64,000 nucleotides of DNA from a virus. The notes below the pieces were generated by a model. It searched no databases. It was given only the letters and a program-made list of their open reading frames with translations, and was not told the DNA's origin. The translations under genes and the position numbers were made by a program. Location: positions 1 to 64,000 of the IMG/VR virus record IMGVR_UViG_3300046744_000223; one strand, given 5' to 3'. Below are positions 13,780 through 31,031 of this stretch, in pieces. Within the stretch, counting starts at the first letter, position 1. Every line of letters starts with the position of its first letter.

Positions 13780-15378
13780 CTATGCGAGTGTTTCTAAACC
13801 ATTAACGTATACCTTACCGTAGAACTCACCTCTTACCATTTGCTTAGCGTAACGTGTCATTACACCTTTTCTTGGAGTGAAGTTTGTTGGGTCATATACC
13901 AACGGAGTCATGATTAATGGAATGTATGGAGCGTAAACTGCGCCAGTTTCCAAGAATTGAGCACCCTTGAAGCCCATCAATACGACATTAGATGTCAAAT
14001 ATGGGTTTTTGTATACTTGGTAACGATTCGCGAATGAACCTACTTGAGATACACCCATTGCGAATTGCATATCAGCACCAGTACCATTAGCAGCAAATCC
14101 TGGGATTGATTCCAAGATAGTTGCAACGTCAGGAGAAACTACCATAAAGTTAGCTCCACCTCTCATGGTCTTAGCATGAATTTGGTTAGATACTCTCTGA
14201 AGAACAGTACCAAGAGTTTGGAACCATTGTTGTTGAGTGTAACGTTGTACGTCATTTGCTGCAGGTGCAGTAAATGCTGAACCATTCCATGAAGAACCTA
14301 CTTTAGCAGACCAGTGACCTTCAGTCAATGCGTTTTCCATCAACATATCTAAGATTTCGAGGTCGATTTCTTGAGATACGTATTCAGACAACATTGAAGT
14401 CAATTCAGCTTCAGCATCAATACTATGGTAAGCGTTCAAATCTTGAGCGAATTCCGGCGTCCATTGTGCTTTCAACTTACGAGTCTTAGCAACGATTGGC
14501 ACAGAGCGTAGCTCTACGTTCAATTCTGGAATACCTATGTCAGCACCAGTTGTGTCTTCGAAGTCACCACGAGTGATGTCAGTTGGTTGTTTCTGATATT
14601 TAACAGTTACATTACCAAAGTCAGTATCACGAGCAACGAATACGATGTTTTCACCAGCTAAACGAGTGTACTCAGCGTAGTACTCGTCAACACCTTCAAG
14701 TGAGAATGCACGTGCACCTTCACTATCGAAGTTTGCGATAGACGCAGTTTGAATAGCAACAGTTACGAGGTCAGCATCGTGAACAGCCCATACTGATTGA
14801 GAGAATGCTGAATCATAGTTGATATCAGACATACCCAAAGATGCAGTAGCGTAAGCGTTTGCACCAACTGAAGTAGCTAATGCTTGAGCAGCAGACTCAT
14901 CTTCATTGATAGAGTATCCGAAACGACCTGCACCATAAAGACCTTCAGAAACATCACCAGCAACTTCGGTAACACCGAATACTGAGTCAGTTTGTGAATT
15001 TTTACCAGCACCAGTTTCGAAACCTGGCTGAGCAGTACCATACTTGAAGTCAAGATAGAATACAAGACCTGAAGGTAGGTTCATTGGTTGTACTGAGACG
15101 AATTCTTTTGCAGCGATTTCGCTGAAGATACGTCTTACTAATGGAAGAGCGACACCGGCCCACTCTTCAGAGTTTGCAGCAGTACCTGTGCTTGATGCTT
15201 CAGATACTAATTGCTTTGCTTGGTTTTCCAACAATGTAGCAATACTTGCTCTTTCGAAGTCAGCGTCAACGCCTTCCAAAAGACCAGTTTTTTCCCACTT
15301 GGCTACAAGGCCTTTAGCCTCTTCGCTCATTTTTTTGTTGAAACCAGCAGATTCGTTTAATAGAGAATTTGTGTTCAT
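13780..15378 (-). CDS. gp23: Major capsid protein, T4 gp23-like
   Basis: This is the main shell subunit. The 532-residue length is close to the T4 protein (521). The early motif EWAGVALPLVRRIFSEI and the VSVQPMNLPSGLVFYL segment near residues 95-115 correspond to the conserved gp23 region MVRRAIPNL...GVQPM. The N-terminus has SLLNE/S (residues 5-10), and QLVSE/A with Glu60, very close to the T4 maturation site (LTE/A, Glu65), so removal of a ~60-residue propeptide by gp21 is likely. AAAAGGA precedes the ATG. It follows gp22 by 30 bases and ends at a strong terminator. The sequence is distant from the T-even type. Confidence 0.95.
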   Translation of the reverse strand: MNTNSLLNESAGFNKKMSEEAKGLVAKWEKTGLLEGVDADFERASIATLLENQAKQLVSEASSTGTAANSEEWAGVALPLVRRIFSEIAAKEFVSVQPMNLPSGLVFYLDFKYGTAQPGFETGAGKNSQTDSVFGVTEVAGDVSEGLYGAGRFGYSINEDESAAQALATSVGANAYATASLGMSDINYDSAFSQSVWAVHDADLVTVAIQTASIANFDSEGARAFSLEGVDEYYAEYTRLAGENIVFVARDTDFGNVTVKYQKQPTDITRGDFEDTTGADIGIPELNVELRSVPIVAKTRKLKAQWTPEFAQDLNAYHSIDAEAELTSMLSEYVSQEIDLEILDMLMENALTEGHWSAKVGSSWNGSAFTAPAANDVQRYTQQQWFQTLGTVLQRVSNQIHAKTMRGGANFMVVSPDVATILESIPGFAANGTGADMQFAMGVSQVGSFANRYQVYKNPYLTSNVVLMGFKGAQFLETGAVYAPYIPLIMTPLVYDPTNFTPRKGVMTRYAKQMVRGEFYGKVYVNGLETLA

Positions 15379-15408
15379 CTTATTAATCCTTTTCTTTTAG
15401 TTTTTTAA

Positions 15409-16449
15409 TTATTTAATTAAACCAGCAAGCTTCTTAAATCTATCAGCAACAGCATTACCTTCAGAAATGATTTCTTTCTTAGGTGCAGTCGATGCCATAG
15501 GCTTAGACGCTAGTGATTCTTTTACAACTGTTTTTGGTTTTCTTGCAACATTCAAGTTTTCACCCAATGTAGCGAATACCAATTTTACTTCTCTCAAAGA
15601 TTCAGCTCTATCGAAGTTTTCGATGACTTTCATCTTCTGACCTTCGTTCAAGTCGAATGTTCTGAACAACTTGTTAGTGTAAAGAAGTTTAGCATTCAAT
15701 AAGTTTACCTCATTGATAGTACCTCTCAACGACTCGATAGTAGCATATGCTTCTTCCAATTCCGTTGATTCTTCTACTTCTTCAACTTCTTCCGATTCGT
15801 AAGTTTCTTCAACTTCTTCTTCTTCAGACATTTCTTTCAAAGTAGAAATGATTTCTTCCAAAGAAAGTTCTTCGTCAAGTTCTTCCGACTCTTCAACTTC
15901 TTCTTCTGATTCCATTACTTCTTCAACTTTTTCAGTTTCTTCAACTTCTTCTTCGTCTAAATCTTCACCTTCCATAGCAGCTTCAAGTTCAGCGATTACT
16001 GATTCAAGGTCGAGTTCATCTTCTTCCTCTTCATCCATCATCTCTTCTACTTCATCTTCTACTTCAGCTTCGTCTTCAGCTTCTTCGTCAGCTTCTTCTT
16101 CAGCTTCTTCTTCAGAATGCATTTCCTCTTCGTGAGAATCGATTTCGTCAGAAGCGATATCAGCTACCTCTTCTTCTTCATCTGATTCTAACTCTTCTTC
16201 CATTTCTTCCTCTTCAGAAACTTCATCTTCCATTTCAGAAACTTCGTCATCCGTTTCGGATTTCATCATTTCTTCCATTTCTTCTTCAACTTCTTCTTCT
16301 TCATCTAACTCTTCAGCTAGTTTATGAGAAAGCATAGATTGGAGTTTTGGAGTAAATGCCTCTTCGAGAGCCATTTTTGCGTTTGCTAATGCAGTTTCTT
16401 TTACGGCTTTAGCATCGGCGATTGCTTCTTTTAACAAATCTGATTTCAT
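15409..16449 (-). CDS. gp22: Prohead core scaffold protein, gp22-like
   Basis: The protein has 346 residues; about 60-230 are extremely acidic (long Glu/Asp runs) and the flanking parts are helical. The N-terminus (MKSDLLKEAIADAKAVKE...) and C-terminal region (VVKESLASKPM... VADRFKKLAGLIK) carry several hydrophobic-x-Glu motifs fitting gp21 cleavage, such as ALEE/A and IISE/G. Position directly before gp23 and after gp21 is the canonical place for the T4 scaffold gp22. It has the best ribosome binding site in the window (AGGAGGT, five bases before ATG). The leader from the nearest promoter-like motif is about 109 bases and contains two hairpins. Identity is assigned from synteny and composition, since the acidic core has little alignable sequence. 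Confidence 0.85.
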   Translation of the reverse strand: MKSDLLKEAIADAKAVKETALANAKMALEEAFTPKLQSMLSHKLAEELDEEEEVEEEMEEMMKSETDDEVSEMEDEVSEEEEMEEELESDEEEEVADIASDEIDSHEEEMHSEEEAEEEADEEAEDEAEVEDEVEEMMDEEEEDELDLESVIAELEAAMEGEDLDEEEVEETEKVEEVMESEEEVEESEELDEELSLEEIISTLKEMSEEEEVEETYESEEVEEVEESTELEEAYATIESLRGTINEVNLLNAKLLYTNKLFRTFDLNEGQKMKVIENFDRAESLREVKLVFATLGENLNVARKPKTVVKESLASKPMASTAPKKEIISEGNAVADRFKKLAGLIK

Positions 16450-16557
16450 TTGTTACCTCCTAAATTAAACTTTTGGATAATAAGATTATTTTAAATCTTA
16501 ATAGAATATAATAATATAATATGAATCACTCATTAGATTGGAGTGATATTAATTTAC
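16450..16557 (-). promoter_or_regulatory. gp22: Structured leader of gp22
   Basis: The minus-strand leader contains ATCACTC...GAGTGAT (perfect seven-pair stem, nine-base loop, 16526-16548), then AAGATT...AATCTT, then the AGGAGGT ribosome binding site. No T-tract follows either stem, so these look like 5' stabilising or translational elements rather than terminators. Confidence 0.5.
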
Positions 16558-16567
16558 AATAAGTATG
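16558..16567 (-). promoter_or_regulatory. Putative late promoter motif, variant CATACTTATT
   Basis: Differs from the recurring element only in the last base. It lies 109 bases before gp22, just downstream of the bS21 stop, and could give a separate gp22-gp23 transcript. Confidence 0.45.
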
Positions 16568-16600
16568 TAAATTTTACAATAAACGATAAAGTGTTTACTA

Positions 16601-16858
16601 TTATCTTGCTTCTTGTTGTCTACGGACCCAATCAGCTCGTCTAGCATCATTCATTTGTTTACGTTTACGTGTAGTCGGTTTAGTGTATTCCCTATTTTGC
16701 TTGATAAGGTCAATTACACCATTATCTTTCATAATACGTTTCCACTTTCTAAGTGCTGCTTCAATGTTATTATTAATAACCTTTACACCATTAGCATGAC
16801 CATATAGGAATAACTCCTCACGTTCTTTTCTTACTTTTTTTTCTCGTTTGTATGACAT
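16601..16858 (-). CDS. rpsU: Ribosomal protein bS21, phage-encoded
   Basis: bS21 is a small-subunit protein near the anti-Shine-Dalgarno end of 16S rRNA. The 85-residue product has a basic N-terminal extension of about 22 residues, then the family core NNNIEAALRKWKRIMKDNGV, the signature YTKPTTRKRKQ, and a basic tail ending in RRQQEAR. The ATG has no Shine-Dalgarno sequence (leader GTTTATTAAATAAAATAT), unlike gp22 next door. It is expressed from its own promoter motif 51 bases upstream, inside the capsid gene cluster, so late synthesis is expected. Phage bS21 genes are known from many aquatic phages and are thought to alter host ribosomes. Compared with what I remember of Flavobacterium bS21, the aligned position of the Tyr implicated in anti-Shine-Dalgarno sequestration appears to be Arg here. 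Confidence 0.92.
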   Translation of the reverse strand: MSYKREKKVRKEREELFLYGHANGVKVINNNIEAALRKWKRIMKDNGVIDLIKQNREYTKPTTRKRKQMNDARRADWVRRQQEAR

Positions 16859-16875
16859 ATATTTTATTTAATAAA

Positions 16876-16907
16876 CAAAAAACACCCATCGAACTAACGA
16901 TAGGTGT
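16876..16907 (-). terminator. Terminator between head genes and bS21
   Basis: On the minus strand ACACCTATCG, loop TTAGTT, CGATGGGTGT pairs over ten positions with one T-G wobble and is followed by six T residues. It ends read-through from the gp20-gp21 unit and directly abuts the promoter motif at 16909. Confidence 0.88.
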
Positions 16908-16908
16908 C

Positions 16909-16918
16909 TATAAATAGT
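16909..16918 (-). promoter_or_regulatory. Putative late promoter motif ACTATTTATA for bS21
   Basis: A copy of the recurring element whose downstream edge is two bases from the terminator stem. A start about seven bases downstream would fall inside the 5' arm of the hairpin. Confidence 0.62.
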
Positions 16919-16932
16919 GTTTGTAAAGTTAA

Positions 16933-17091
16933 TTAAGACATTTTATCTAAACCATCTTTAAAATCAGATATAAGATTTCCAAATTCTTTTTGTTTATCGG
17001 CTGGTAACCTCTTAATCTTTTTAAGGTTCTTTTTGATAAATGATGAAAAATCAACACTTATTTCTTGAAGTCGTTCTAAATCACGATTCAT
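16933..17091 (-). CDS. Small unknown protein (52 aa)
   Basis: The frame begins MNRDLERLQEISVDFSSF, continues with a Lys-rich helical stretch (KKNLKKIKRLPADKQKEFG) and ends FKDGLDKMS. The ATG overlaps the stop of the 325-residue gene upstream (TAATG), a strong sign of translational coupling. I recognise no family. The charge pattern suggests a two-helix protein. It is the last gene before the terminator at 16876-16907, so it belongs to the prohead transcript and may be a minor core or assembly factor. Confidence 0.7.
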   Translation of the reverse strand: MNRDLERLQEISVDFSSFIKKNLKKIKRLPADKQKEFGNLISDFKDGLDKMS

Positions 17092-18068
17092 TATTTCTTA
17101 ACCTTACCTTTTTTGATATCTCTTTCAAGTTCTTCTGCAGCTCTTAATACATCTACAACTGATATATTAATTGGTACTTGACGATATTTTGATATTTTAC
17201 GAACTGCCAACATCACAATTCTTTTTTCTTCGCTAGAAGCACCTTCTCCAATAATATCTTCGGTTACTGATTCAAAGTAAAGGTCAGACATCTTATCTTG
17301 AAGTTTAGGGTTTTTAAAATCAAACTGATACTTTTCCATTGCTCTTCTGGCTTTCAATGCCGATTTAGCAGCAACTACAAAGTATCCTTTTTTAGAACCA
17401 CCTAATTTCTTTTGTAGTTTATTTGCTTGGTCTTTAGTACCAATACCCTTTTGGTTTCCCTTTGGGTCTATTATTGAGTATTTGTTTTCACTTAGTATAT
17501 CAGTTAGTTTCATTGACGATTCTTCATTTACAGATTCTTTAGCGAATTCTTTAGCGTTTTCCTTGTCGTCCTTATCAACGTCTTTTACTGGAAATTCTTT
17601 ACCATCTACTTCGAACTCATCATCACCATTAGCAATTGCTTTCGCTCTTGCAGCGCCGAATTCGTTACCTTCTTTGATTTCGTAATACTTACCAAGAACT
17701 TCGCCCATCTCATCGTAACAAGACTCAAGTCTTTGTTGTAGGGTATTTACTTCTTTGATTGTATTAGTAAATACTTTGAATGACTCATTCATAGACTTCA
17801 TGTGTCTACCAACAGTTACCTTGTCAAACCAATCTCCAGTTTCCTCAAGAGTTACCTTGTGTGCAGTCTCTACAATACCTTTAATAGATTCGTATACTTC
17901 TGCCAAATTACCTGAACGGTAGATTGACTCACCGAATTTCTTGTATTCAGAAACAGCTTTAAGGAATTCACGCTTTTCTTCGTTAGTCATTCCCTTTTGG
18001 GTTTCTTCATCGTTTATCTTCATACGTTTGTATGTAGATTCGTTTAGTAGTTCTTTTAAATTTTTCAT
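17091..18068 (-). CDS. Probable internal head protein with gp21-type cleavage motifs (325 aa)
   Basis: The N-terminus MKNLKELLNE/S resembles the capsid-targeting peptide of T4 internal proteins (MKTYQEFIAE/A). Residues 1-175 are mostly helical and charged. A second targeting-like peptide, SSMKLTDILSE/N, sits at 185-195. It introduces a domain (YSIIDPKGN... KYQFDFKNPKLQDKM...) that is homologous to part of the 289-residue protein at 24739-25608, and both copies end at LY-ESV-(T/S). VNE/E near 182 and VTE/D near 270 also fit a hydrophobic-x-Glu rule. It overlaps gp21 upstream by TAATG. I infer a packaged or scaffold-associated protein; I see no enzymatic motif. Confidence 0.65.
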   Translation of the reverse strand: MKNLKELLNESTYKRMKINDEETQKGMTNEEKREFLKAVSEYKKFGESIYRSGNLAEVYESIKGIVETAHKVTLEETGDWFDKVTVGRHMKSMNESFKVFTNTIKEVNTLQQRLESCYDEMGEVLGKYYEIKEGNEFGAARAKAIANGDDEFEVDGKEFPVKDVDKDDKENAKEFAKESVNEESSMKLTDILSENKYSIIDPKGNQKGIGTKDQANKLQKKLGGSKKGYFVVAAKSALKARRAMEKYQFDFKNPKLQDKMSDLYFESVTEDIIGEGASSEEKRIVMLAVRKISKYRQVPINISVVDVLRAAEELERDIKKGKVKK

Positions 18069-18706
18069 TATACTCCAAAATCACATTCACAATATCCACC
18101 AACCTCACACATGATGTCTCTCATCATATTGTTAGCTTTATTGTATTTATAAGTATTCTTTTTAACAGTAACCGATTCGTTTATCGTACCCTCGTTTGTT
18201 GGTGAAAGAAATGCTCCATGAGTTGATGGGTTAGAAACAAAGTCCCAACATATCAAATCAAAGTCTTGTTCTACTGCGACGGTGTCTTCACCAATTTGTT
18301 TTACGGAACCCATACCTCTTGACGAGATACCAACAGTACACCCAGCTTTTACTAATTCTTGTAAAATCTTTCCAGCTGGTGTATTTAGTATTTCAACTGT
18401 TCCAACAACATCATCACCATTCCATGATACTTCACGGATAATGTGTGATGTGTTCTTTAATTCGACTACACCACTTTCAGGATGGTCCAATTCACCATAA
18501 GCACGATTCTCTTTGATTTCACGTCCTTGGTATTTCTTTACTTCACGTTCTAAGATGTTACGTGGATACACTCTACCATTTTGGTTTTTAGCATCAGCAC
18601 GTTGTAACACACCATTTACTAAGAAACGACCAGTCTGGTCCTTTGCTTCTTGTAACATAGTAGGTGTTACTTCAAATATCATTGTATCTACAAGTAGTTG
18701 TTTCAT
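18068..18706 (-). CDS. gp21: Prohead maturation protease, T4 gp21-like
   Basis: This serine protease matures the T4-type prohead by cutting after hydrophobic-x-Glu. I choose ATG 18706 (MKQLLVDTMIFEV..., 212 aa), one base after the stop of the 46-residue gene; a longer start at 18760 would lie inside that gene. Conserved features are NQNGRVYPRNILEREV (41-56), GELDHPESG with catalytic His75, and VGISSRGMGS with the nucleophile serine (128 or 129). T4 gp21 has RNKRLYPKRILEKAV, GELNHP and GVSSRGLGS at the same places. The C-terminal TINE/S may be an autocleavage point. Its position between portal and scaffold genes is canonical. Confidence 0.95.
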   Translation of the reverse strand: MKQLLVDTMIFEVTPTMLQEAKDQTGRFLVNGVLQRADAKNQNGRVYPRNILEREVKKYQGREIKENRAYGELDHPESGVVELKNTSHIIREVSWNGDDVVGTVEILNTPAGKILQELVKAGCTVGISSRGMGSVKQIGEDTVAVEQDFDLICWDFVSNPSTHGAFLSPTNEGTINESVTVKKNTYKYNKANNMMRDIMCEVGGYCECDFGV

Positions 18707-18707
18707 C

Positions 18708-18848
18708 TTAGTTTTCCCACACCTTTTTCTTACGATATAAATCAAAGAACACTCTTGCAAGTTCTCTACGTATCAATAGTCTGATATCTTCGAGGTCTTG
18801 TACTTCGAGGTCTTCGTTTAATTTATTTTTATTACACCCACACGACAT
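18708..18848 (-). CDS. Small head-cluster protein (46 aa)
   Basis: The product reads MSCGCNKNKLNEDLEVQDLE followed by a basic helix containing IRLLIRRELARVFFDLYRKK and ends KVWEN. CGC near the N-terminus could bind metal. KLNE/D matches the hydrophobic-x-Glu motif seen in neighbouring head proteins. The ATG lies one base after the 176-residue gene stop and the stop lies one base before gp21, so the three genes are tightly coupled. I recall similar tiny ORFs beside gp21 in marine T4-like phages but cannot name a family. A minor core protein, comparable in position to T4 gp67/gp68, is plausible. Confidence 0.78.
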   Translation of the reverse strand: MSCGCNKNKLNEDLEVQDLEDIRLLIRRELARVFFDLYRKKKVWEN

Positions 18849-18849
18849 A

Positions 18850-19380
18850 CTATGCGCTCAATTCTTTTAGATTACGAGCAACTTTCAACATTCTTTCTGA
18901 AATCTTACCGAATCTTTTTTGTGTAGACTTCCAATATTGTTCATTAGATACACCCATTTCGTTTTTCAACTTAGTGTTCTGATTTACAATCTTTTCAACT
19001 TCGTACATCATTCGATTAATCTCTTTGATAGATTTATTTACTTTTTGATGTGCTTTCATAGAGTCATCTTTTTTGTAATCTCTATAAGTAGCTTCGATTA
19101 TACGTTCTAGCTTATCTTCTAATTTCTTCATAGTTTTAGACTCCGTATTTATCTTTTTAGTTTTCTTTGGCTTCTTGTAACCAAGTACTTCTATGTGGTC
19201 AGTATCTAAATCATCCTCATCTTCACTTTTAGAAAAAGCGTTTGGAGTTTTAGGTGGGCCTGCTCCCCCATCCATATTAGATGTTACATTAGCCTCATCT
19301 ACCTCTTCCTCTTTAAGAGTTTCGATTGACTCCAGCTCTTCAAACTTACCTTCCAATTGTTCTAGTAAGAATTTAGACAT
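18850..19380 (-). CDS. Prohead core-type protein (176 aa)
   Basis: I take ATG 19380 (MSKFLLEQLEGKFEELESIE) because a strong GGAGGG site lies six bases upstream; a longer start at 19413 would overlap the preceding gene more. Residues 1-29 are acidic and end in EEVDE/A, a hydrophobic-x-Glu motif. Residues 30-60 are flexible (GGAGPPKTPN). The rest is a charged coiled-coil-like helix. Its place between the portal-proximal gene and gp21 matches the small core proteins of T4 prohead assembly. No enzymatic motif is visible. The function is inferred from position and composition. Confidence 0.7.
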   Translation of the reverse strand: MSKFLLEQLEGKFEELESIETLKEEEVDEANVTSNMDGGAGPPKTPNAFSKSEDEDDLDTDHIEVLGYKKPKKTKKINTESKTMKKLEDKLERIIEATYRDYKKDDSMKAHQKVNKSIKEINRMMYEVEKIVNQNTKLKNEMGVSNEQYWKSTQKRFGKISERMLKVARNLKELSA

Positions 19381-20218
19381 TCGAAACCCTCCGTAACTCT
19401 TGTAAAAGTTCATGATATCTTAGAAGAGATAAAATCTGATTCTCATTGATTATTTTAGAATTTGTAATGTTATCAATAAGATTTACAGTTTCATTTAGTT
19501 TTATTTGTGCTACTTTATCCGATACATCTACTGCTTTGAAACTTTTCTTTAGTTTCTTAACTTCAGTTATAACAAATGACTTTAATTTAGTTGAATTATC
19601 AACGTTGTTGATATAATTCTTTAAAATCATTTTTTGTTCTTCTGATAAAGTTGTGTACTTTGAGTTAAATGATTCGACCAAGAACTTATAAGCCAACAAC
19701 CTAACTTCTTTAGATTGGTTGTTATACTCAGTATTATCAGATTCAGTTACAATCTCAACATTTGATTTAGTGATTACTTCGAGTATTGTATTTTTACAAG
19801 TAACGTACTCTTTTGGAGATGCCAAACTTGTATTTTCAAACATTTTGTAAACCGATGCCATTTCACGATAATTAGTAACACGATATTTAAAGAAGTCCTC
19901 CATAACAAATGACTCTTTGATTGATTTAATCAAATTATACTTTTGTCTACGAAGAATACCCTCATTTAAACTACCACGTTCTTCCAATACAATATTTAAA
20001 AACTCCTGAGCCTGATATTGGTTATCAAAGTTTTCTTTAGTTAAAGATTGATACAATTTTAACTCTTTGTTTAATTCAGTACCTCGTTTGAAATGTTTCT
20101 TTATTATTTCCAAGGCAAGAGAATCTTTGTTCGCAAGTGTATCGGATGCGATTTGCTTTACGAGTAATTCAAATAGAATACCCGTATTTTTAAACTTGCT
20201 GTGTTTTAATTTGGCCAT
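19373..20218 (-). CDS. Unknown head-cluster protein (281 aa)
   Basis: Predominantly helical with few Gly, Pro or Cys; it begins MAKLKHSKFKNTGILFELLV. Proteins with this opening (KYKNTGILFELL) occur after the portal gene in other T4-like marine phages as far as I recall, but no function is known to me. A promoter motif lies 30 bases upstream and AAGG lies seven bases before the ATG, so it starts a transcript through gp21 to the 52-residue gene. It overlaps the next gene by eight bases. A scaffold or portal-associated assembly role is likely from context only. Confidence 0.7.
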   Translation of the reverse strand: MAKLKHSKFKNTGILFELLVKQIASDTLANKDSLALEIIKKHFKRGTELNKELKLYQSLTKENFDNQYQAQEFLNIVLEERGSLNEGILRRQKYNLIKSIKESFVMEDFFKYRVTNYREMASVYKMFENTSLASPKEYVTCKNTILEVITKSNVEIVTESDNTEYNNQSKEVRLLAYKFLVESFNSKYTTLSEEQKMILKNYINNVDNSTKLKSFVITEVKKLKKSFKAVDVSDKVAQIKLNETVNLIDNITNSKIINENQILSLLRYHELLQELRRVSNV

Positions 20219-20247
20219 TGTAAACCTTATCTATTACTATTCCAATT

Positions 20248-20257
20248 TATAAATATG
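20248..20257 (-). promoter_or_regulatory. Putative late promoter motif CATATTTATA
   Basis: A copy of the recurring element, 30 bases before the 281-residue gene, in the 49-base gap after gp20. Confidence 0.7.
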
Positions 20258-20267
20258 TAAAAACTCA

Positions 20268-22118: not shown

Positions 22119-22156
22119 AATTTCGTCTCTAACTAAAAGTATATACTTCTACAAGT

Positions 22157-22166
22157 TATAAATATA
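22157..22166 (-). promoter_or_regulatory. Putative late promoter motif TATATTTATA
   Basis: A copy of the recurring element, 39 bases before gp20, preceded on the minus strand by a T-rich TTTTTTGTA stretch. Confidence 0.6.
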
Positions 22167-22191
22167 CAAAAAATAAATTAAAGTACCAAAT

Positions 22192-23766: not shown

Positions 23767-23774
23767 ATCACATA

Positions 23775-24356: not shown

Positions 24357-24359
24357 AAA

Positions 24360-24677
24360 TTACTTGTTGTAAAGTTCGTAAACTTTATTAATTAGATTCG
24401 TCTTGTTTAATTTAGAATCCAAATCAACATTGTGGTCTTTTTTAGCAGCCTCAAGCATTTGTACTTTTGTCATCGAACGAAGTTTACTTTTAGTAACCTT
24501 CCCTTTGATAGCCGACATTACGTCTTTAAGTTCGTCTGCTACATCAGCAAACTCTTCTTTAACTGATTGTAGCTTTTCCTTTGCATCTGATACTGTTTCC
24601 ATGATTTGTTCATCAATGGTAGTTTTGTTCAATAATCTATTCCATAGACCGATGAACCAATTTTTAAGTTTTGTCAT
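24360..24677 (-). CDS. Small unknown helical protein (105 aa)
   Basis: The N-terminus (KLKNWFIGLWNRLLN) is an amphipathic, membrane-affine helix. Residues 20-60 form a charged coiled coil, and the C-terminal 40 residues (RSMTKVQMLEAAKKDHN... KTNLINKVYEL) look like a small SAP/LEM-type helix-turn-helix. A promoter motif lies 33 bases upstream, making this the first gene of the gp17 unit. No enzymatic residues are visible. A membrane- or DNA-associated packaging accessory would fit the context but is speculative. Confidence 0.6.
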   Translation of the reverse strand: MTKLKNWFIGLWNRLLNKTTIDEQIMETVSDAKEKLQSVKEEFADVADELKDVMSAIKGKVTKSKLRSMTKVQMLEAAKKDHNVDLDSKLNKTNLINKVYELYNK

Positions 24678-24709
24678 GATTTTCTTTTTTTGTTAAACTT
24701 ATTGTATTA

Positions 24710-24719
24710 TATAAGTATG
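24710..24719 (-). promoter_or_regulatory. Putative late promoter motif CATACTTATA
   Basis: An exact copy of the recurring element, 33 bases before the 105-residue gene that leads the gp17 transcript. Confidence 0.7.
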
Positions 24720-24738
24720 TAACTCAAAGTTAATTAAG

Positions 24739-25608
24739 TTACCACTTACGGCAAGACCAATATCTAGCTTTATGTCTTGGTCCTGGATTATCACAATTGT
24801 GTCTTGCTCTAAATGCCTTACGTCTCGCAGGGTCATTCTTTTTGATAGACATAGTTTTACCCTTTGCTGAAGAGCCACCATGTCCAAAGTTTACCTTTAC
24901 AACATTTCCTTTTGGATTCTTTACATACACTTTAAACTTTTTAACATCACCTTGCATTGGCTTACCAAGTTTTACATCACGACCTTGATACTCTGCTTCA
25001 TCAAGTGTTGGGTTTAGTGCGTAGATGTCACTATTCTGCTCTTTATGTAGATTTAACATCTGAGAATATTCTTTCATAAAGTTTATGAAGTCATGTGTTT
25101 CTTCAATACTTTCTACATCATATTCTTCAATCACCTCATCACCTTCGTTTCTTCTCTTCTTAGAGTAGAGGTAGTCTTTATATAGTTCTTCATAATCAAC
25201 ACCATCTTTCTCATAATCTGATAACGCTTCAGTTGATACTGATTCCTTGTACAATTTAAACATCGAATCTCTGAACTTAGTATTACTAAGGTCTGACTGA
25301 TATTTTTTGATAAGTGATTGTGCTTTACTTAGGTTTTTCTTTGATACGATGTAGTGTGTTCCTTTACCTCTATATTTCTCAAAGGAATACCACATATTAC
25401 TTTCAAGACCCTTATCAACGACTTTACCATCTTTGTCAAGTATCATATATAATCCACTTGAATATGTAGCTTCATTTTTAAATGATGATACATATGGGTT
25501 GTCAATTACCTTACCCAGCTCAGTAGTAAAACCATACTTATCTTCCATAAAGCCTTTTACGTTATGGTATTCTTCTCTGATTAATTCCTTGAGTTGTGTT
25601 TTAGTCAT
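24739..25608 (-). CDS. Probable packaged multidomain virion protein (289 aa)
   Basis: Three parts are visible. Residues 1-125 start KTQLKELIREEYHNVKG and include a domain (YMILDKDGK... KYQSDLSNTKFRDSMFKLY) homologous to the 325-residue head protein. Residues 128-200 are an acidic helical spacer. Residues 205-289 form a basic C-terminal domain: KFKVYVKNPKGNVVKVNFG, then NDPARRKAFRARHNCDNPG, and an ARYWSCRKW end with paired Cys. I remember this last domain from many T4-like marine phages without a known function. TLDE/A (204/205), exactly at the last domain border, fits gp21 cleavage. It lies two bases downstream of the next polyprotein gene. Nucleic-acid binding by the C-terminal domain is an inference from its charge. 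Confidence 0.7.
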   Translation of the reverse strand: MTKTQLKELIREEYHNVKGFMEDKYGFTTELGKVIDNPYVSSFKNEATYSSGLYMILDKDGKVVDKGLESNMWYSFEKYRGKGTHYIVSKKNLSKAQSLIKKYQSDLSNTKFRDSMFKLYKESVSTEALSDYEKDGVDYEELYKDYLYSKKRRNEGDEVIEEYDVESIEETHDFINFMKEYSQMLNLHKEQNSDIYALNPTLDEAEYQGRDVKLGKPMQGDVKKFKVYVKNPKGNVVKVNFGHGGSSAKGKTMSIKKNDPARRKAFRARHNCDNPGPRHKARYWSCRKW

Positions 25609-25609
25609 C

Positions 25610-27406
25610 TTACTTTACCTTTTTAGCCAATGAGTAAAAGTCAATGTTGAATCTAAAACCAGCACCATCGTAATCTCTATCCACTTCAACTGGAACTTTA
25701 AGTTGTTTCTCAAGTGTCTTTCTCAATTCTTCTTTCACATCGACATCATTTTCAACTGCACCTTGGAGACCATCTAAGTCATTACCACTTGCAGCGATTA
25801 GGGTCAATCCCTTTGAGTCACCCATAACTTTAAAGTTTACTGAGTCTTTACCCAATCTCACTTTTGCTTCTTTGATGATACCTTCACCGAATTGTTTAAC
25901 CATTTTCTTTTGAACTGGGTTATTAGGTTTACCTGCGATTGCAGATACTAACTTCATTCTATCAGCAAGTTTACCTTTCTTAACGAATTGGTATACTTTC
26001 TCAATGTCTAATTTGTTATCATCAACAAACTTTTGGATAGCATCTTTATTCATGCCAGTCAAACCACCAATTTCCATTGCAGTTCTTGTTGTAGACTCAT
26101 TTACCTTTACACCAACGGGTTTGTTAGATTTTACAATCATACCCTTAGCACCATCTTTCTCAACCGATTTTAAGAATTTCTTAGCATCAGCTTCTTTTGC
26201 ATATACAGCTGATGATGGTTTTATATTTTTGTTAGGTAAATCTTTTTTGTCCTTAAACATCACTACAAATACTTTATCCTTAGCTTCGTTTACTGATTCG
26301 TCTACTTTATACTTGTAGATTACATCACTTCTATCTCTTAACTTAGTTTTGTTATTTTGTAAATCATAGCTAGGGTTTGCAGTAGTTGCTTTAGCAAACT
26401 TACCATTCTTTAAATAAAATGCACCAATACGAGAATTGTTATCATCGGTTACATAGAATACTGCGTTTTTCTTTTTCTTAGATAATGCAACAATATCAGT
26501 AAGGTTTTTAGCTTTGATGAATTTACCATATCCTTCGTTTACTGATTCATTCATATATTTCTTCCAATCTTTGTGTTCAGGCGCGAGTGCAGTACGACCC
26601 ATATTTTTTTTCAAATCTTTGTTCTGCTCTCTATTATCTGGATGTGCAATTCTTGATGCAAATTTGTTTTTCATATCTACATAGAAATGTGCTCCAAAGT
26701 AATCTATGATATAAGCACCCTTCTTACCTTTGATTGTATCATATTCGTTATGAAGTAATACACCAGGAACTTTCAATCCGATTCCTGAGTGACCTGATAC
26801 ATATTTGATTGGAGTATCTCTATACAGCTGATAGTAAGCGTGTCCTCTTTGTGGAGTAATCATACCTTCTTCTACTGATTCACTTTTCCAACCACCACCT
26901 GCTTTTTTGTATTGTTTTGCAGCCCATCCATTTGCGTATGCTGATGGGTATACATCAAACTTCTTCTTTGCTTGTGCTTTATAGTAAGACCATTTAGATG
27001 GGTTAGTTGGTACATTCTTCTCGTCCAATTGTTCACCCTCTTTAACTAATGACTCTTCAATTGATTCTTTTAGTGACATCAATCTATGTCCGAAAGACCC
27101 ACCAATTGACATACTTAGATAAAATGCAAATGCGTCAATTATATCGTGACCATCGTACTTTGCAGCTTTAGCAATAGCAATACCCTTACTTTCAATTACA
27201 TCTTCCATTGGTGTACCAATGAATTTCTTACCTGCTTTTGGAAAGTATTTACCTAATTGCTTTGCTTCACTATGAAAGTTAGCATCAGTTAAGGCGCCTC
27301 TCATAATCAGCATAACCGATTCGTGATGTTCTGGCGAATTCTTTTTCTCATCTTTTAGATAATCATCTAAAAACTTTTTAACTGATTTATTTAGTTTAGT
27401 ATTCAT
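25610..27406 (-). CDS. Probable packaged polyprotein with repeated ES-V-x-E junctions (598 aa)
   Basis: Several small domains are separated by near-identical junctions: SVEE/G (180/181), SVNE/G (291/292), SVNE/A (374/375), KVNE/S (437/438) and IIKE/A (513/514). Each fits a hydrophobic-x-Glu/small-residue rule. Domain 1 (1-115) is helical. Domain 2 (130-175) has KKKFDVYPSAYANGWAAKQY, a basic motif I recall from other virion proteins. Domains 3-6 are mixed alpha/beta, for example YVTDDNNSRIGAFYLKNGKF and KVFVVMFKDKKDL. The last (514-598) resembles a small alpha/beta fold. AAGGAG lies four bases before the ATG. I see no catalytic signature. A set of head-internal proteins made as one chain and cut by gp21 is the simplest reading. 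Confidence 0.65.
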   Translation of the reverse strand: MNTKLNKSVKKFLDDYLKDEKKNSPEHHESVMLIMRGALTDANFHSEAKQLGKYFPKAGKKFIGTPMEDVIESKGIAIAKAAKYDGHDIIDAFAFYLSMSIGGSFGHRLMSLKESIEESLVKEGEQLDEKNVPTNPSKWSYYKAQAKKKFDVYPSAYANGWAAKQYKKAGGGWKSESVEEGMITPQRGHAYYQLYRDTPIKYVSGHSGIGLKVPGVLLHNEYDTIKGKKGAYIIDYFGAHFYVDMKNKFASRIAHPDNREQNKDLKKNMGRTALAPEHKDWKKYMNESVNEGYGKFIKAKNLTDIVALSKKKKNAVFYVTDDNNSRIGAFYLKNGKFAKATTANPSYDLQNNKTKLRDRSDVIYKYKVDESVNEAKDKVFVVMFKDKKDLPNKNIKPSSAVYAKEADAKKFLKSVEKDGAKGMIVKSNKPVGVKVNESTTRTAMEIGGLTGMNKDAIQKFVDDNKLDIEKVYQFVKKGKLADRMKLVSAIAGKPNNPVQKKMVKQFGEGIIKEAKVRLGKDSVNFKVMGDSKGLTLIAASGNDLDGLQGAVENDVDVKEELRKTLEKQLKVPVEVDRDYDGAGFRFNIDFYSLAKKVK

Positions 27407-27414
27407 AATACTCC

Positions 27415-27714
27415 TTAGTTGATGTATGCGTTTAACTCATAACCCTTCTTCATACCATATACTTGGATTTGAAGAGACTTACGTTGTGGTTTACCACCTT
27501 TAAGCAATCTAACTGTGAACTCAGTAGTTTTACCTTCACTTGGTCTTGAACGTTTGTTACGACCACCCATTACAATCTGAGACTGCCAATCGTCTTCATC
27601 AATTTCAAATCCACGTTTTTCAGCAAGCTTCCTTGCTTCTTCAGATGCCGCGGTAAATGATTTGTGATATATCTTGTAATCACTCTCGTTTAGTAATTGT
27701 TTTAGCTTAATCAT
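27415..27714 (-). CDS. Small probable internal head protein (99 aa)
   Basis: I use ATG 27714 because it gives MIKLKQLLNE/SDYK, an N-terminal peptide nearly the same as that of the 325-residue head protein; a longer frame to 27786 would lie within the upstream gene. The ATG follows the upstream stop by one base. The mature part (FTAASEEARKLAEKRGFEID... and QRKSLQIQVYGMKKG) is basic and predicted alpha/beta. No family is recognised. The N-terminal peptide suggests targeting into the prohead and removal by gp21. Confidence 0.68.
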   Translation of the reverse strand: MIKLKQLLNESDYKIYHKSFTAASEEARKLAEKRGFEIDEDDWQSQIVMGGRNKRSRPSEGKTTEFTVRLLKGGKPQRKSLQIQVYGMKKGYELNAYIN

Positions 27715-27715
27715 A

Positions 27716-28126
27716 TTATGCCCCAGTTTTTGAGTATGTTGGTTTTTTTCCTTTGGTACTATTACCACCTCGTTTAGAGTCACCACTTTTCTTTTGTGCA
27801 GCTCTTTTTCTATTTACGAAAGACGCTCTACCCTTTGGTCCAAGTTTTGCAGCCTTTTCTTTTGATAAACATGCAGCGTATGCACCACCATCTTTACCAT
27901 CACCACACTTACCTAACTTCTTACCATCGGAACTATATCTATCCCATCCACCACCATCTGATGAACCGGTCTTACCTTTACCAAACCACTTACGCAAATC
28001 TTCGGTCATTACACCTTCAGAACATAGTCGTTCGTAAACATCGGAAATGGTATACTCCATAGCTAATGTATGAGGTATACCATCTTCGGTGTAGAATTTA
28101 TATGTTTCTTTAATAAATGTTTTCAA
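27716..28126 (-). CDS. Basic probable packaged protein (136 aa), TTG start
   Basis: The likely start is TTG at 28126, with GGAG eight bases upstream; no ATG gives a better start. The first 42 residues are acidic and end in GVMTE/D, a hydrophobic-x-Glu motif. The remainder is strongly basic: DLRKWFGKGKTGSSDGGGWD, KLGKCGDGKDGG, YAACLSKEKAAKLGPKG and KRAAQKKSGDSKRGGNS. Two or three Cys could bind zinc. The basic body resembles small Lys/Arg-rich proteins of large viruses and phages and may bind packaged DNA. A charge-compensating acidic propeptide removed by gp21 would parallel T4 internal proteins. Confidence 0.68.
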   Translation of the reverse strand: MKTFIKETYKFYTEDGIPHTLAMEYTISDVYERLCSEGVMTEDLRKWFGKGKTGSSDGGGWDRYSSDGKKLGKCGDGKDGGAYAACLSKEKAAKLGPKGRASFVNRKRAAQKKSGDSKRGGNSTKGKKPTYSKTGA

Positions 28127-28127
28127 T

Positions 28128-28706
28128 TTATTTCTCCAATTTTTGGATAAAGGTTTCTTTAAAATTTTGAAACTCAGTTTCTATCTTTTCTTCAATCTCT
28201 TCCCATGAACCACCATCCCAATCTTCAAGTGACCCATCTTCATTCACAAACCTAGCTTTCATAGCTAACTTTATAGTATCCTTTTCCAACTCAGCTTGGG
28301 CTAACCAAGCTTTTGCGTTTTCTAGCTTCTTTTTACGTTCATACTCACTATACGTACCATCAATTTTCATTTGATGTTCCATACTAATAACACAATTTAG
28401 ACACATACCATGAATGGCCTGCATCTTAATATCGTTACGAGTTGGATTCGTATGCGACGTACACGTATCTTTTTTACAATTAGGAAAGTCCTTGAGCGTG
28501 TTTCTCAATTCCGAAAGTTTACCAAGTTTTACTTTGTATCCTTTCTTCTGCTCCCATGTATTTCCATCATCATCAATCCACTGGTCACCAACTTCTCGTT
28601 TGACGAACTCTTTATGTGCATCAAATGCCACCGTGTTCTTTGTTTGTGTTCGGTGGTTTCCAGCAATCATTTCTTTGACTGCCTTGATGTTGTTTAATTT
28701 TGACAT
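28128..28706 (-). CDS. Unknown protein with a possible Cys cluster (192 aa)
   Basis: Helical, charged protein that starts MSKLNNIKAVKEMIAGNHRT. Residues about 75-105 contain CKKDTCTSH followed by GMCLNC, a spacing consistent with a zinc site. ALKARF-type and WDGGSWEEIEEKIETEF segments follow. A promoter motif lies 27 bases upstream of the ATG, so this gene leads the unit with the polyprotein genes downstream. Two bases separate it from the next gene. I recognise no named family; similar proteins that I recall in T4-like marine phages are annotated as hypothetical. Confidence 0.65.
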   Translation of the reverse strand: MSKLNNIKAVKEMIAGNHRTQTKNTVAFDAHKEFVKREVGDQWIDDDGNTWEQKKGYKVKLGKLSELRNTLKDFPNCKKDTCTSHTNPTRNDIKMQAIHGMCLNCVISMEHQMKIDGTYSEYERKKKLENAKAWLAQAELEKDTIKLAMKARFVNEDGSLEDWDGGSWEEIEEKIETEFQNFKETFIQKLEK

Positions 28707-28732
28707 AACTTTTTATATATAACTTTTATTAC

Positions 28733-28742
28733 TATAAGTATG
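28733..28742 (-). promoter_or_regulatory. Putative late promoter motif CATACTTATA
   Basis: An exact copy of the recurring element, 27 bases before the 192-residue gene and touching the end of the 762-residue gene. Confidence 0.7.
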
Positions 28743-31031
28743 TTAAAAATACATTAAACCAAGGATTTGGTTGAGTGATGCAAATGTACCTGTAAGTTTC
28801 ATGGTGTATCCTTTATATGCGAATACCAATCCCTCATTTGGAACAATCTTATCTCTACCACCTACGGCTTTTAGTCTTTCTAATTCTAATTTTAATTTTT
28901 CAATCTTTTTTGGGTCGCCTGATTTCCTAACGTCTTTGATGGTTTGGTCGAGTCGTTTTTGCATTGCACGAAGAGCTTTGTCTGGATTTACAGTTAAAGC
29001 TGATGACATAAAGGATAATACCTCGGCACCTACACCTAAGAATATATCTTCAAACTTACGTATGTTTTGTTTGGATATTTTAATTTGGTCTATTTTATCA
29101 GTCTTCTTTGCCCAATCTAATGTTTTAGAATCAGAAATGTTTTTCTTATCCAAACGGAATCCCTTATCATAAAATGCCCAACGTTTAACAAGACCCATTT
29201 TGGTTTTGTTGTCTAATGAAGATGGTGAGTTTTTATCAACATACTGTTCCCACCAACGTTGATGGTATTCAGCTACACCATCACTATCTTTAAGTTTAAA
29301 TTCTTTTTGAACTTTAGATAATTGACTAAAGAACTTTGATTTCATTTTTGATAGTTCTTGATTCTTTGGGAGAGTTACAACCGGAGGGCCTTGTATTGTA
29401 TATGCATCTTGTACATCCGCATTTACTTGTTTAATCATACCGGCTAAGATTCTTGCATCAGAGGTGTCTGCTCCAATAGCTTCACCTTTTTCGTTGTATT
29501 CCATAGTTCCATGAAATACTAATAGGGGTTGACCATATGGTACTACGTTTACTGACTCCGGCCAGATGACTTCGATGTTCATAAACTTTGAACCATTCTT
29601 GAAGACTTTTTCTTTTTGTGCTTTTGATAGTTTTGAAATCGCAGATTCCAAATCTCTCATAGCGAAATTATACGCATCGGTCAAACCACCTCTATTAGCA
29701 AATTTATCTGAAACACCCTTAATGTCTAATGCATTAAGTCCTTTATCTTTTAGATGTGATTTATTTCTTGCAGCGATGATACCTTTGTCACTTCTATATG
29801 ATATAGCAAGTGCTTGTCCATCGGTTTTTTCTCGTGTAAATTCTAACTTACCATTTAGAGCGTTATCTATTATTATTTTTAAATCACCAAATGTAAGGCC
29901 TAACTCAATATCAAATGGGTGATTCATATGACCATATGCACCACCTTCATTAAGAATACCTTCTTTTAGATTATTTTTTTTATCTTTAGTTTTTTCATTA
30001 TCAATTTTAGAAGTAAGATTTTCAATATCCTTTGGTTCAGCAAACTTAACGAATTCCATACCCAAACGAAGGGCAACTTTCTTAATATGTTTAGCCCACT
30101 TTTTATATCCTGGTCTGCCGGTTACATCCGTTCCATATCTCGCTTTCTGACCATCCATGGTATCACCACTTGGAAAAAATGATACCGGATATCTACCAGA
30201 CCCATTAGGGTATGATGTATCAAATGACTCCATGGAATCATCATCCATTAGGTATGATATAATTTGCCAACCTAATGTAGAAGTTACATCATTCATCTCT
30301 TTCTTAAAAGTTTTCATATTACCATAGAAAGCGCCAGGACCATCATCTACTATACCCTTACCACTTGGTGGTAATGATGAAGCTTCGGATAACATTTCAT
30401 TAATATCAAATGTTTGTAAGAACGATTCCATTACGGATTCTACTTTTATTAAACGACCTGAAACTAAATCATAAATCTTTTGGTTGAACTTTGGGTATAC
30501 TGACTTGAAAAACTTAATACGAGATTTCTCATCCGAATCAGACATACCTTTACGAACTTGAGTACCAGATATTCCGTTTCCTTGTGATGGGGATACATAA
30601 ACATAACCAGCATCAGCATAACCCTTTTCTACCTTACCCTTATATGGTTCAAAGTATTTACCACCCAATCTACTCTTGTCCTTCTCACCAACTACTGTGA
30701 TAAATGCAGTAGTCTCTTCTGAAAATGATTGTAGAATCTCTTTTGGTGAATATGGGTTTTTTACCTTTACTATTTTATTTTTGGGAATACCAAACATAGT
30801 AGTCATTATCTTAACTTTCTCTTTGAAAGTGAATGGTGACTTTGGTAATTGTACCTTATCAGACGTACCTATATACACATTATCTTTACCAAACTTTTTA
30901 ACTAAGTGTTGGTATGTTGCGTTATGGCCAGAATGGAATGGATGAAACCTACCTACGTAAGTTACCACTGTTTTTTTAATGTCTTCGGTAAGGATTGATT
31001 CCGTTACCCATTCGTTTATTAATTTTCCCAT
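28743..31031 (-). CDS. Nucleotidyltransferase-polynucleotide ligase fusion, probable packaged polyprotein (762 aa)
   Basis: Domain 1 (about 20-200) is a cytidylyltransferase-like nucleotidyltransferase of the NMN adenylyltransferase type: VTYVGRFHPFHSGH with HxGH at 33-36, and ISGTQVRKG at 154-162. Domain 2 (217-350) is unknown. Domain 3 (363-762) has the covalent nucleotidyltransferase motifs of ATP-dependent ligases: EKTDG with Lys402 (motif I), FMNIEVIW (motif III, near 483), EGLVFAY (733, motif IV) and MKLTG (744, motif V). The junctions are ILTE/D (16/17), MLSE/A (216/217) and ILNE/G (362/363), all of the gp21-type pattern and all at domain borders. The likely activities are NAD synthesis and nucleic-acid end joining. 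DNA versus RNA specificity cannot be told. No clear OB-fold is visible. Confidence 0.8.
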   Translation of the reverse strand: MGKLINEWVTESILTEDIKKTVVTYVGRFHPFHSGHNATYQHLVKKFGKDNVYIGTSDKVQLPKSPFTFKEKVKIMTTMFGIPKNKIVKVKNPYSPKEILQSFSEETTAFITVVGEKDKSRLGGKYFEPYKGKVEKGYADAGYVYVSPSQGNGISGTQVRKGMSDSDEKSRIKFFKSVYPKFNQKIYDLVSGRLIKVESVMESFLQTFDINEMLSEASSLPPSGKGIVDDGPGAFYGNMKTFKKEMNDVTSTLGWQIISYLMDDDSMESFDTSYPNGSGRYPVSFFPSGDTMDGQKARYGTDVTGRPGYKKWAKHIKKVALRLGMEFVKFAEPKDIENLTSKIDNEKTKDKKNNLKEGILNEGGAYGHMNHPFDIELGLTFGDLKIIIDNALNGKLEFTREKTDGQALAISYRSDKGIIAARNKSHLKDKGLNALDIKGVSDKFANRGGLTDAYNFAMRDLESAISKLSKAQKEKVFKNGSKFMNIEVIWPESVNVVPYGQPLLVFHGTMEYNEKGEAIGADTSDARILAGMIKQVNADVQDAYTIQGPPVVTLPKNQELSKMKSKFFSQLSKVQKEFKLKDSDGVAEYHQRWWEQYVDKNSPSSLDNKTKMGLVKRWAFYDKGFRLDKKNISDSKTLDWAKKTDKIDQIKISKQNIRKFEDIFLGVGAEVLSFMSSALTVNPDKALRAMQKRLDQTIKDVRKSGDPKKIEKLKLELERLKAVGGRDKIVPNEGLVFAYKGYTMKLTGTFASLNQILGLMYF

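Follow-up and report, generated by a model that had tools for sequence, protein, structure and literature searches.

In phage T4 the prohead protease gp21 has the published cleavage consensus L/I-X-E, and the internal proteins IPI-IPIII, like Alt, carry a short N-terminal peptide with a gp21 site before unrelated, mostly small basic proteins (PMC9026906); the T-even internal proteins have only the targeting sequence in common (PMC3012670). Phage effectors packaged in the head show no sequence relationship to one another, which makes them difficult to detect. In SPN3US and phiKZ, a gp21-like protease processes many packaged ejection proteins at short Glu-ending motifs, in some cases at several sites, and the cuts as described remove propeptides (PMC5694885). 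Polyvalent proteins are large, multidomain, equipped with early-infection enzymes and predicted to be packaged and injected; in the accessible part of their description (Iyer et al. 2017, PMC5512222), the proposed processing is mainly by built-in zincin-like peptidases, or delivery is whole, and neither prohead-protease separators nor an exchangeable 15-bp word such as we find here is mentioned. Here we describe a phage head cluster that we consider likely to encode cargo polyproteins, whose gp21-cut modules would be retained by the capsid and delivered along with the DNA. The T4-type system itself is known, and this candidate polyprotein version of it appears to be new: the protease family (S77) and the L/I-x-E consensus are shared, but T4 has one cargo per gene, whereas here many putative cargos would share a chain that has internal sites and units shuffled between phages. 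Unlike the cuts described for SPN3US and phiKZ, the candidate cuts here would separate several cargo modules from one another. No earlier description of such separators or of phage head polyproteins was found in the literature searched, which was open-access and included few subscription journals and no bioRxiv preprints.

The window analysed comprises positions 1-64,000 of IMGVR_UViG_3300046744_000223, and the head cluster studied lies at 13780-31031 (Table 1). The source phage is marine and T4-like, with a 173-kb genome. A sequence-only reading had listed gp21-type motifs throughout this cluster and taken the proteins carrying them as head-packaged cargo. Every listed motif was located at its place, and the profile matches confirm the prohead protease identity given to gp21, whose gene lies between gp20 and gp22, with the S77 domain in the portal-scaffold interval. 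As a cargo list it was too broad, given that gp23, the gp22-like scaffold and gp21 are ordinary substrates whose cutting is expected and not novel, and VMTE/D, called N-terminal, sits at residue 42 and is thus not really so. The expected substrates gp23 and gp22 keep their predicted L/I-x-Glu-like sites across relatives. For gp23, LVSE/A or LVKE/A is kept in all relatives read, with the variants QIVSE/A in phage immuto and QLISE/A in Mel-JY01; the scaffold, which has no family match among Pfam and PHROG profiles, carries conserved MALEE/A (30) and IISE/G (330) and then a conserved C-terminal KLAGLIK peptide. The small EEVDE/A protein, equally without a match in these profiles, is probably a core protein.

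Table 1. Features of the head cluster, with coordinates in the window.
Feature	Coordinates	Strand	Evidence and sites
gp23 major capsid protein	13780..15378	-	PF07068 1.5e-77; SLLNE/S (residue 9), QLVSE/A (residue 60)
gp23 Glu60 codon, predicted maturation site LVSE/A	15199..15201	-	position and motif
gp22-like acidic scaffold	15409..16449	-	position, composition, conservation in relatives
Multi-module cargo candidate	17091..18068	-	MKNLKELLNE/S targeting-like peptide (ELLNE/S at 10), helical module, GNEF module, ESVNE separator, further modules
gp21 prohead protease, ATG start, 206 aa	18068..18688	-	Peptidase_S77 2.5e-31; phrog_207 1.2e-51
gp21 candidate autoprocessing site INE/S near C-terminus	Glu codon 18176-18178	-	INES/LKEG/INEG conserved in near relatives
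Small head-cluster protein, EEVDE/A (VDE/A at 40)	18850..19413	-	motif; homologues at same place in relatives
Cargo candidate, C-terminal phrog_7595 module after LDE/A	24739..25608	-	Glu204 (codon 24997-24999); phrog_7595 3.3e-12
598-aa candidate polyprotein	25610..27406	-	borders KE/G123, SVEE/180 (SVEE/G), SVNE/291 (SVNE/G), SVNE/374 (SVNE/A), VNE/437, IIKE/513 (IIKE/A)
Modules of the 598-aa chain	27038-27406, 26867-27037, 26534-26866, 26285-26533, 26096-26284, 25868-26095, 25613-25867	-	motif borders
Single-module cargo candidate	27415..27714	-	MIKLKQLLNE/SDYKIYHKSF; QLLNE/S at 10
Small basic protein, VMTE/D at residue 42	27716..28126	-	motif only; homologues in relatives
NMN adenylyltransferase-like (about 20-200), middle module (217-357), ligase-like module (363-762)	28743..31031	-	PF01467 1.1e-4; phrog_395 4.6e-14
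Sites in the preceding protein: ILTE/D16, MLSE/A216, ILNE/G362	Glu362 codon 29946-29948	-	motif

To compare motif frequency with chance, a check set beforehand, [LIVMF]xE/[AGSD] was counted against composition-preserving shuffles. The nine head-cluster proteins hold 50 motifs (1.48 per 100 aa) versus 22.4±4.6 after shuffling, a count reached by none of 500 shuffles, while the rest of the 173-kb genome stays at chance (194 versus 189.3±12.9; 0.45 per 100 aa). With gp21, gp22 and gp23 left out, the cargo candidates still show 31 motifs versus 11.4±3.3 (0/1000 shuffles), and the corresponding loci of relatives yield 294 non-redundant proteins with 894 versus 393±23. Taken by themselves, N-terminal motifs show no significant enrichment here (4/16 versus 20/153, p=0.17). 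One might argue that proteins rich in Glu and Lys will match so short and loose a pattern by chance, since it consists of two defined residues and a loose third, and since the gp17/gp20/phoH control proteins of relatives exceed their shuffles as well, if less strongly (140 versus 96±9). However, the shuffles preserve composition and give under half the observed count, and at one junction described below the motif is conserved in 28 of 28 contexts despite changing partners. Because of these counts, this junction and the marked module starts reported next, chance is already contradicted, and we regard it as very improbable. What convinces is where the motifs lie and how they compare between phages rather than how many there are, and it is the sequences of relatives that supply the strongest evidence.

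In these comparative sequences, the strings of modules, their candidate sites and their shuffling are clear. Relatives encode, at the same loci, exchangeable lysine-rich modules (median 84 aa) separated by ESVNE/(A,G,S), in which part the chains proposed by the sequence-only reading stand: module strings, gp21-type borders and interchangeable starts are all present. Across 7 copies, a module family can have as many as 7 neighbours on the left and 7 on the right. The first module of the multi-module candidate is a single-module gene adjoining gp21 in Mel-JY01, and its modules are recombined in two relatives (L025, L030); in another (L086, 91-98% identical to the 598-aa chain), whole extra modules are inserted exactly at borders 180 and 291, and the single-module candidate recurs inside L075 after KSVNE/A and inside L119 after SINE/. 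AlphaFold gave low confidence for the 598-aa chain and the NMNAT-ligase protein (pLDDT 58.6 and 59.0), so that the models did not confirm the domain borders and served for the NMNAT fold only. The modules are basic (+0.060 charge per residue versus -0.017 in the rest of the genome, p=4e-20), as T4 internal proteins are, and about 12 unrelated families carry MxLKxLLxE/-type N-termini; the sequence-only reading had noted a likeness of MKNLKELLNE/S-type starts to the T4 targeting peptide.

Among 546 places homologous to a post-separator module with unrelated sequence upstream, 378 (69%) have [LIVMF]xE at most two residues from the projected start, against a background of 15%; 12 of those marked starts are N-terminal peptides, and Met starts occur at 3 further places. 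Homology breaks adjoin the motif in 46% versus 20% expected within the head-cluster zones, and in 30% versus 15% over all ORFs of the loci, a figure diluted by tail and spurious ORFs. A module begins at the same residue whether it is preceded by an MxLKxLLxE/ peptide at the N-terminus, by an internal separator or, in podo- and siphophages, by Met. In T4-like phages the phrog_7595 module follows LDE/A, INE/A, LTE/A, LEE/A, MME/S or LDE/G; in podo- and siphophages it stands alone as an ORF beginning MA[KT]Y[QK]G. The ligase-like module occurs in 28 contexts with mutually dissimilar upstream partners, and its junction has Glu at P1 and Leu/Ile at P3 in 28/28, with P2 variable, which equals the published gp21 consensus. 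Separators have Ala (34%), Gly (29%) or Ser (11%) at P1'. Many also have Val at P3, beyond the strict L/I of T4. By implication, LVSE/A in gp23 suggests that Val is accepted at P3, and across two lineages the separator covaries suggestively with the gp23 site (V-x-E with LVSE; L-x-E with FLSE/FLTE).

The sequence-only reading had overlooked both the module shuffling and the conservation of the ESVNE separator as DNA. ESVNE is encoded by GAATCAGTAAACGAA in 117 of 181 cases, with Val as GTA in 99% (background 48%), Asn as AAC in 85% (39%) and Ser always as TCN, and this word prevails among relatives whether near, mid or distant. The separator 16-mer is in frame at 108 of its 113 occurrences, and 13 of the 14 larger contigs chosen by it alone encode a gp21 S77 domain. 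Codon choice is thus more constant than the protein requires, which means that selection for protease cleavage does not account for all of the conservation, and the separator is probably a crossover point for module shuffling too. Such an exchange through a short conserved DNA word is reminiscent of integron-type gene cassettes, although here the modules are in-frame protein units and the word is not palindromic. The fixed word, the same from near to distant relatives, would also suit separators that are recombination scars or flexible linkers, with the DNA permitting swaps and the chains acting uncut as multidomain proteins. We consider this unlikely: at the ligase-like junction the DNA varies (24 different 9-mers among the 28 contexts) while L/I-x-E is constant, a shared first G falls far short of explaining the P1' preference for A/G/S, homologues that stand alone start exactly one residue past the Glu, and the same motif lies in N-terminal peptides, where nothing is fused. 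More tentatively, and at somewhat less than an even chance, the 15-bp GAATCAGTAAACGAA may double as prohead-protease site and recombination point, such that swapped-in modules would automatically be packaged, cut free and injected, giving this gp21-bearing aquatic phage group a plug-in arsenal of injected effectors, including a kit for NAD and RNA repair.

The NMNAT domain has a signature of the GRFxPxHxGH type found in NadM/NadR-type NMNATs, here YVGRFHPFHSGH, and matches PDB NMNATs in sequence (2.4e-05) and fold (2.2e-04). In the ligase-like module, which has no ligase match in Pfam or PHROG and lies in a poorly modelled AlphaFold region, E-K402-x-D404-G405, E487, E733-G734 and K745 are invariant in 22 sequences; these are candidate counterparts of motif I (KxDG) and motifs III, IV and V of covalent nucleotidyltransferases and polynucleotide ligases. 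Chains of relatives combine NMNAT, HD, PolyA_pol and ligase-like domains (L156) or the same without HD (L115). Polyvalent proteins combine 2-15 conflict or early-infection domains per polypeptide near packaging genes, and NMNAT and ligase-like domains are so combined in the window; as regards processing by a built-in metallopeptidase, HExxH segments are present in L127, L160 and a separate gene of the same genome (98577-99341), and motif reading noticed none in the window chains. The enzyme family is homologous to the virion-associated NMNAT/cytidylyltransferase of cyanomyoviruses, unlike which the window NMNAT is fused to a ligase-like module via a gp21-type site. NMNAT homologues have been found in the virions of S-SM1, S-SCSM1, S-CBWM1, S-SZBM1 and S-CREM2 (PMC3037559, PMC9602691, PMC10665884), with the caveat, given by the authors of the virion studies, that CsCl-purified virions may contain contaminating host-expressed proteins. 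In S-SCSM1 the NMNAT starts MKSFLQFLKE/A, and five of its neighbours are virion proteins. Packaging of the cargo is thereby suggested indirectly, by analogy with cultured T4-like cyanophages. The motif is weakly enriched in S-SCSM1 virion cargo without gp22 (15 versus 9.2±2.9; 40/1000 shuffles), and we therefore cite this phage for packaging and not for motif statistics; a literature search found no virion proteomics of phage immuto.

These virion data also bear on whether gp21 would cut the chains as core or scaffold, with the pieces expelled before packaging, like T4 gp22, gp67 and gp68, and nothing delivered. In T4, cleavage indeed breaks the core proteins into numerous fragments, most of which exit the head (PMC9026906), the genes studied here adjoin gp20, gp21 and gp22, and gp22 itself holds nine motif sites. 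Unlike scaffold, however, the modules are diverse, swap neighbours freely and include conserved enzyme domains; the same modules are found in phages of other head types, and the NMNAT homologue and its neighbours persist in mature cyanophage virions. An expelled core is accordingly a rather improbable reading, and delivery of the cut cargo into the host is what the sequences probably reflect.

From these comparisons we infer cleavage, packaging in this phage, injection and cargo function as follows. An N-terminal capsid-targeting peptide (MxLKxLLxE/ or an equivalent such as ...SILTE/) would draw the chain into the prohead, to its gp22 core. There, as in gp23 maturation, gp21 would cleave (L/I/V)-x-Glu-(A/G/S) behind the Glu, so that the peptide is lost and the modules come apart. 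The freed modules, namely small basic proteins and enzymes such as the NMN adenylyltransferase and a nucleotidyltransferase/ligase-like domain, to which relatives add HD and CCA-type nucleotidyltransferase domains, would remain in the capsid and pass into the host together with the DNA, probably to restore NAD or RNA and to block defences. The repeated ESVNE word probably also serves as a homologous crossover point for in-frame module swaps.

Should the separators be gp21 sites, cargo could be recognised from them directly. The modules that follow ESVNE or L/I-x-Glu junctions in IMG/VR contigs would then amount to an inventory of small injected proteins, very few of them of known function, with ready-made mature ends for defence assays. 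This reading also predicts which hypothetical proteins of the cultured phages immuto (on Flavobacterium), Mel-JY01 (on Microcystis), Melnitz (on Methylophilales) and HTVC008M should occur as virion fragments; for immuto the candidates are YP_010114595.1 (a NadR ORF), YP_010114604.1 and YP_010114584.1 (site LDE/GEYRG). It would represent, within the searches made, the first case in a tailed phage of a capsid maturation protease processing cargo polyproteins.

The sequence belongs to a T4-like phage (full IMG/VR record, 172,940 bases) whose gp23 shares 55-57% identity with gp23 of Flavobacterium phage immuto and Microcystis phage Mel-JY01. Several uncharacterised ORFs are interspersed among the head-cluster genes and on to 31031. 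The sequence-only reading had proposed that a network of gp21-type sites here marks polyproteins that are packaged in the head, cut apart and injected with the DNA, and all sites it named were found in the sequence. Compared with shuffled proteins, [LIVMF]xE[AGSD] was enriched in nine head-cluster proteins (50 observed, 22.4±4.6 expected), while the remaining genome stayed at chance level (194 vs 189±13). Without gp21, gp22 and gp23, the cargo candidates still carried 31 motifs vs 11.4±3.3 in shuffles. N-terminal motifs by themselves were not enriched in the genome (p=0.17), and bS21 lacks a gp21-type N-terminal site.

Features of the head cluster, its cargo candidates and related loci (slash, predicted gp21 cut)
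Feature	Position	Strand	Content
Head cluster	up to 31031	minus	gp23, acidic gp22-like scaffold, bS21, gp21 (Peptidase_S77), gp20, gp17
Ribosomal protein bS21, within head cluster	16601-16858		PF01165, 4.5e-13
Protein with C-terminal module	24739-25608		LDE/A before module
598-aa chain	25610-27406	minus	module 2: weak DUF5872 match at residues 133-172, PTNPSKWSYYKAQAKKKFDVYPSAYANGWAAKQYKKAGGGW (0.0049, below cut-off)
Small unit	27415-27714		MIKLKQLLNE/SDYKIYHKSF
NMNAT-ligase protein	28743-31031	minus	NMNAT domain; ligase-like module in which KxDG and the ligase-type motifs after it are invariant
Satellite cargo candidate, outside window	G000 (L164) 98577-99341		N-terminal site ILE/GMYDK
Satellite cargo candidate, outside window	G000 (L164) 99363-100070		RITE/DIKIPIKVGD, aligned with LNE/NINIPVKVGD in relatives' chains
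Relatives' single ORFs, 1300-1850 aa	L156:5756-11317, L115:7243-11151, L127:5675-11221		NMNAT, CCA/poly(A) polymerase and ligase-like modules; L156 also HD domain
Mel-JY01 segment adjoining head genes	L162:22429-23595		by eye ADP-ribosyltransferase-like (Alt/VIP2-like)
N-terminus beginning a relative's cargo chain	L110:4754-8125		by eye ADP-ribosyltransferase-like (Alt/VIP2-like)

The modules are lysine-rich and basic. The ligase-like module gave no ligase family match. In relatives, the NMNAT-ligase chain reaches 1853 aa and adds HD, PolyA_pol/CCA-type and zinc-ribbon-like segments; the three single ORFs tabulated look like a ready-made set of tools for mending tRNA and NAD. Some modules found within the NMNAT-ligase chains of relatives or of immuto are separate genes in this phage's own genome, the two satellite candidates, 70 kb away and with their own N-terminal gp21-type sites. 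The two ADP-ribosyltransferase-like segments are possible counterparts of Alt.

Using the terminase and the NMNAT-ligase protein as queries, we gathered 159 relatives' loci, in which ORFs from the ligase gene to gp17 and from gp20 to gp22 are strings of modules with ESVNE(A/G/S) separators. Neighbours change freely: seven copies of one module family have seven different left and seven different right neighbours, and 27 copies of a C-terminal module have 22 different left neighbours. Of the homology breaks, delimited independently of the motif, 46% on the left and 45% on the right adjoin it, against about 20% expected. L086, which comes closest to the 598-aa chain (91-98% identical), has entire additional modules inserted precisely at that chain's separators, at residues 180 and 291. 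Strings including some of the same modules also occur in the Kyanoviridae phages HTVC008M, Melnitz and C48C1 (L169, L170 and L173), with separators of the L/I/M-D-E type that fit their own gp23 sites, FLSE/FLTE.

The separator is also conserved as DNA. ESVNE is encoded by GAATCAGTAAACGAA in 117/181 occurrences, with Val as GTA in 99% (48% elsewhere), Asn as AAC in 85% (39%) and Ser never as AGY, across near, mid and distant relatives. Among the IMG/VR matches listed for GAATCAGTAAACGAAG, 108/113 sites are in frame as ESVNE, and 13/14 larger contigs selected solely by this word carry an S77 protease. The separator thus behaves like a DNA element too, in the simplest reading a crossover point for homologous recombination. 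That it is such a point and nothing more is, however, a weakened explanation, opposed by N-terminal peptides and by the ligase junction, where L/I-x-E is constant while the DNA varies. There, 28 mutually dissimilar sequences precede the ligase-like module, yet the residue directly before its first Gly is always Glu (28/28), P3 is always Leu or Ile (28/28) and P2 varies, so that the aligned pattern equals the published gp21 consensus L/I-X-E (PMC9026906). The junction DNA lacks conservation (24 different 9-mers among 28), which places selection at the protein level.

Other modules likewise point to a protease site. Where a recurring module has unrelated upstream sequence, [LIVMF]xE stands at its projected start in 378/546 places (69%; background 15%). 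The small unit reappears within a chain as KSVNE/AQYQVYHKSF, and another shared module starts after either MIKLKNLLNE/A or ESVNE/A; N-terminal peptide and internal separator thus provide equivalent starts. MxLKxLLxE/-type N-termini precede about 12 unrelated families, much as T-even internal proteins are unrelated proteins whose sole common part is a targeting sequence (PMC3012670). The C-terminal module of the 24739-25608 product serves as a natural control: in other T4-like phages it follows INE/A, LTE/A, LEE/A, MME/S or LDE/G, but it stands alone in pelagiphage HTVC111P, siphophage Kolga and Roseobacter phage CRP-902, as an ORF beginning M-A-[KT]-Y-[QK]-G, which places its natural N-terminus at the residue after Glu.

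Virion proteomics turned up for cultured T4-like and other cyanomyoviruses, not for this phage or its near relatives: NMNAT/cytidylyltransferase proteins occur in virions of S-SM1, S-SCSM1, S-CBWM1, S-SZBM1 and S-CREM2, with carry-over possible according to the authors of those studies. The S-SCSM1 record labels its NMNAT (N-terminus MKSFLQFLKE/A) and five neighbours (89, 90, 92, 93 and 97) as virion proteins; without gp22, motif enrichment among its virion proteins is weak.

From homology and site conservation, we infer that the chains would be targeted to the capsid and into the gp22 core, where gp21 would cut at the targeting peptide and at the separators; the freed modules would stay in the head and be delivered along with the DNA. 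This is the best account of the chains, and the sequence-only reading was largely right about contents and likely mechanism. Given the domain content and known phage NAD-reconstitution pathways (PMC12774641), we suggest that the cargo may repair NAD and RNA to counter host defences. The system would be a variant of the T4 internal-protein system that brings it together with chains resembling polyvalent proteins and with the shuffling of modules.
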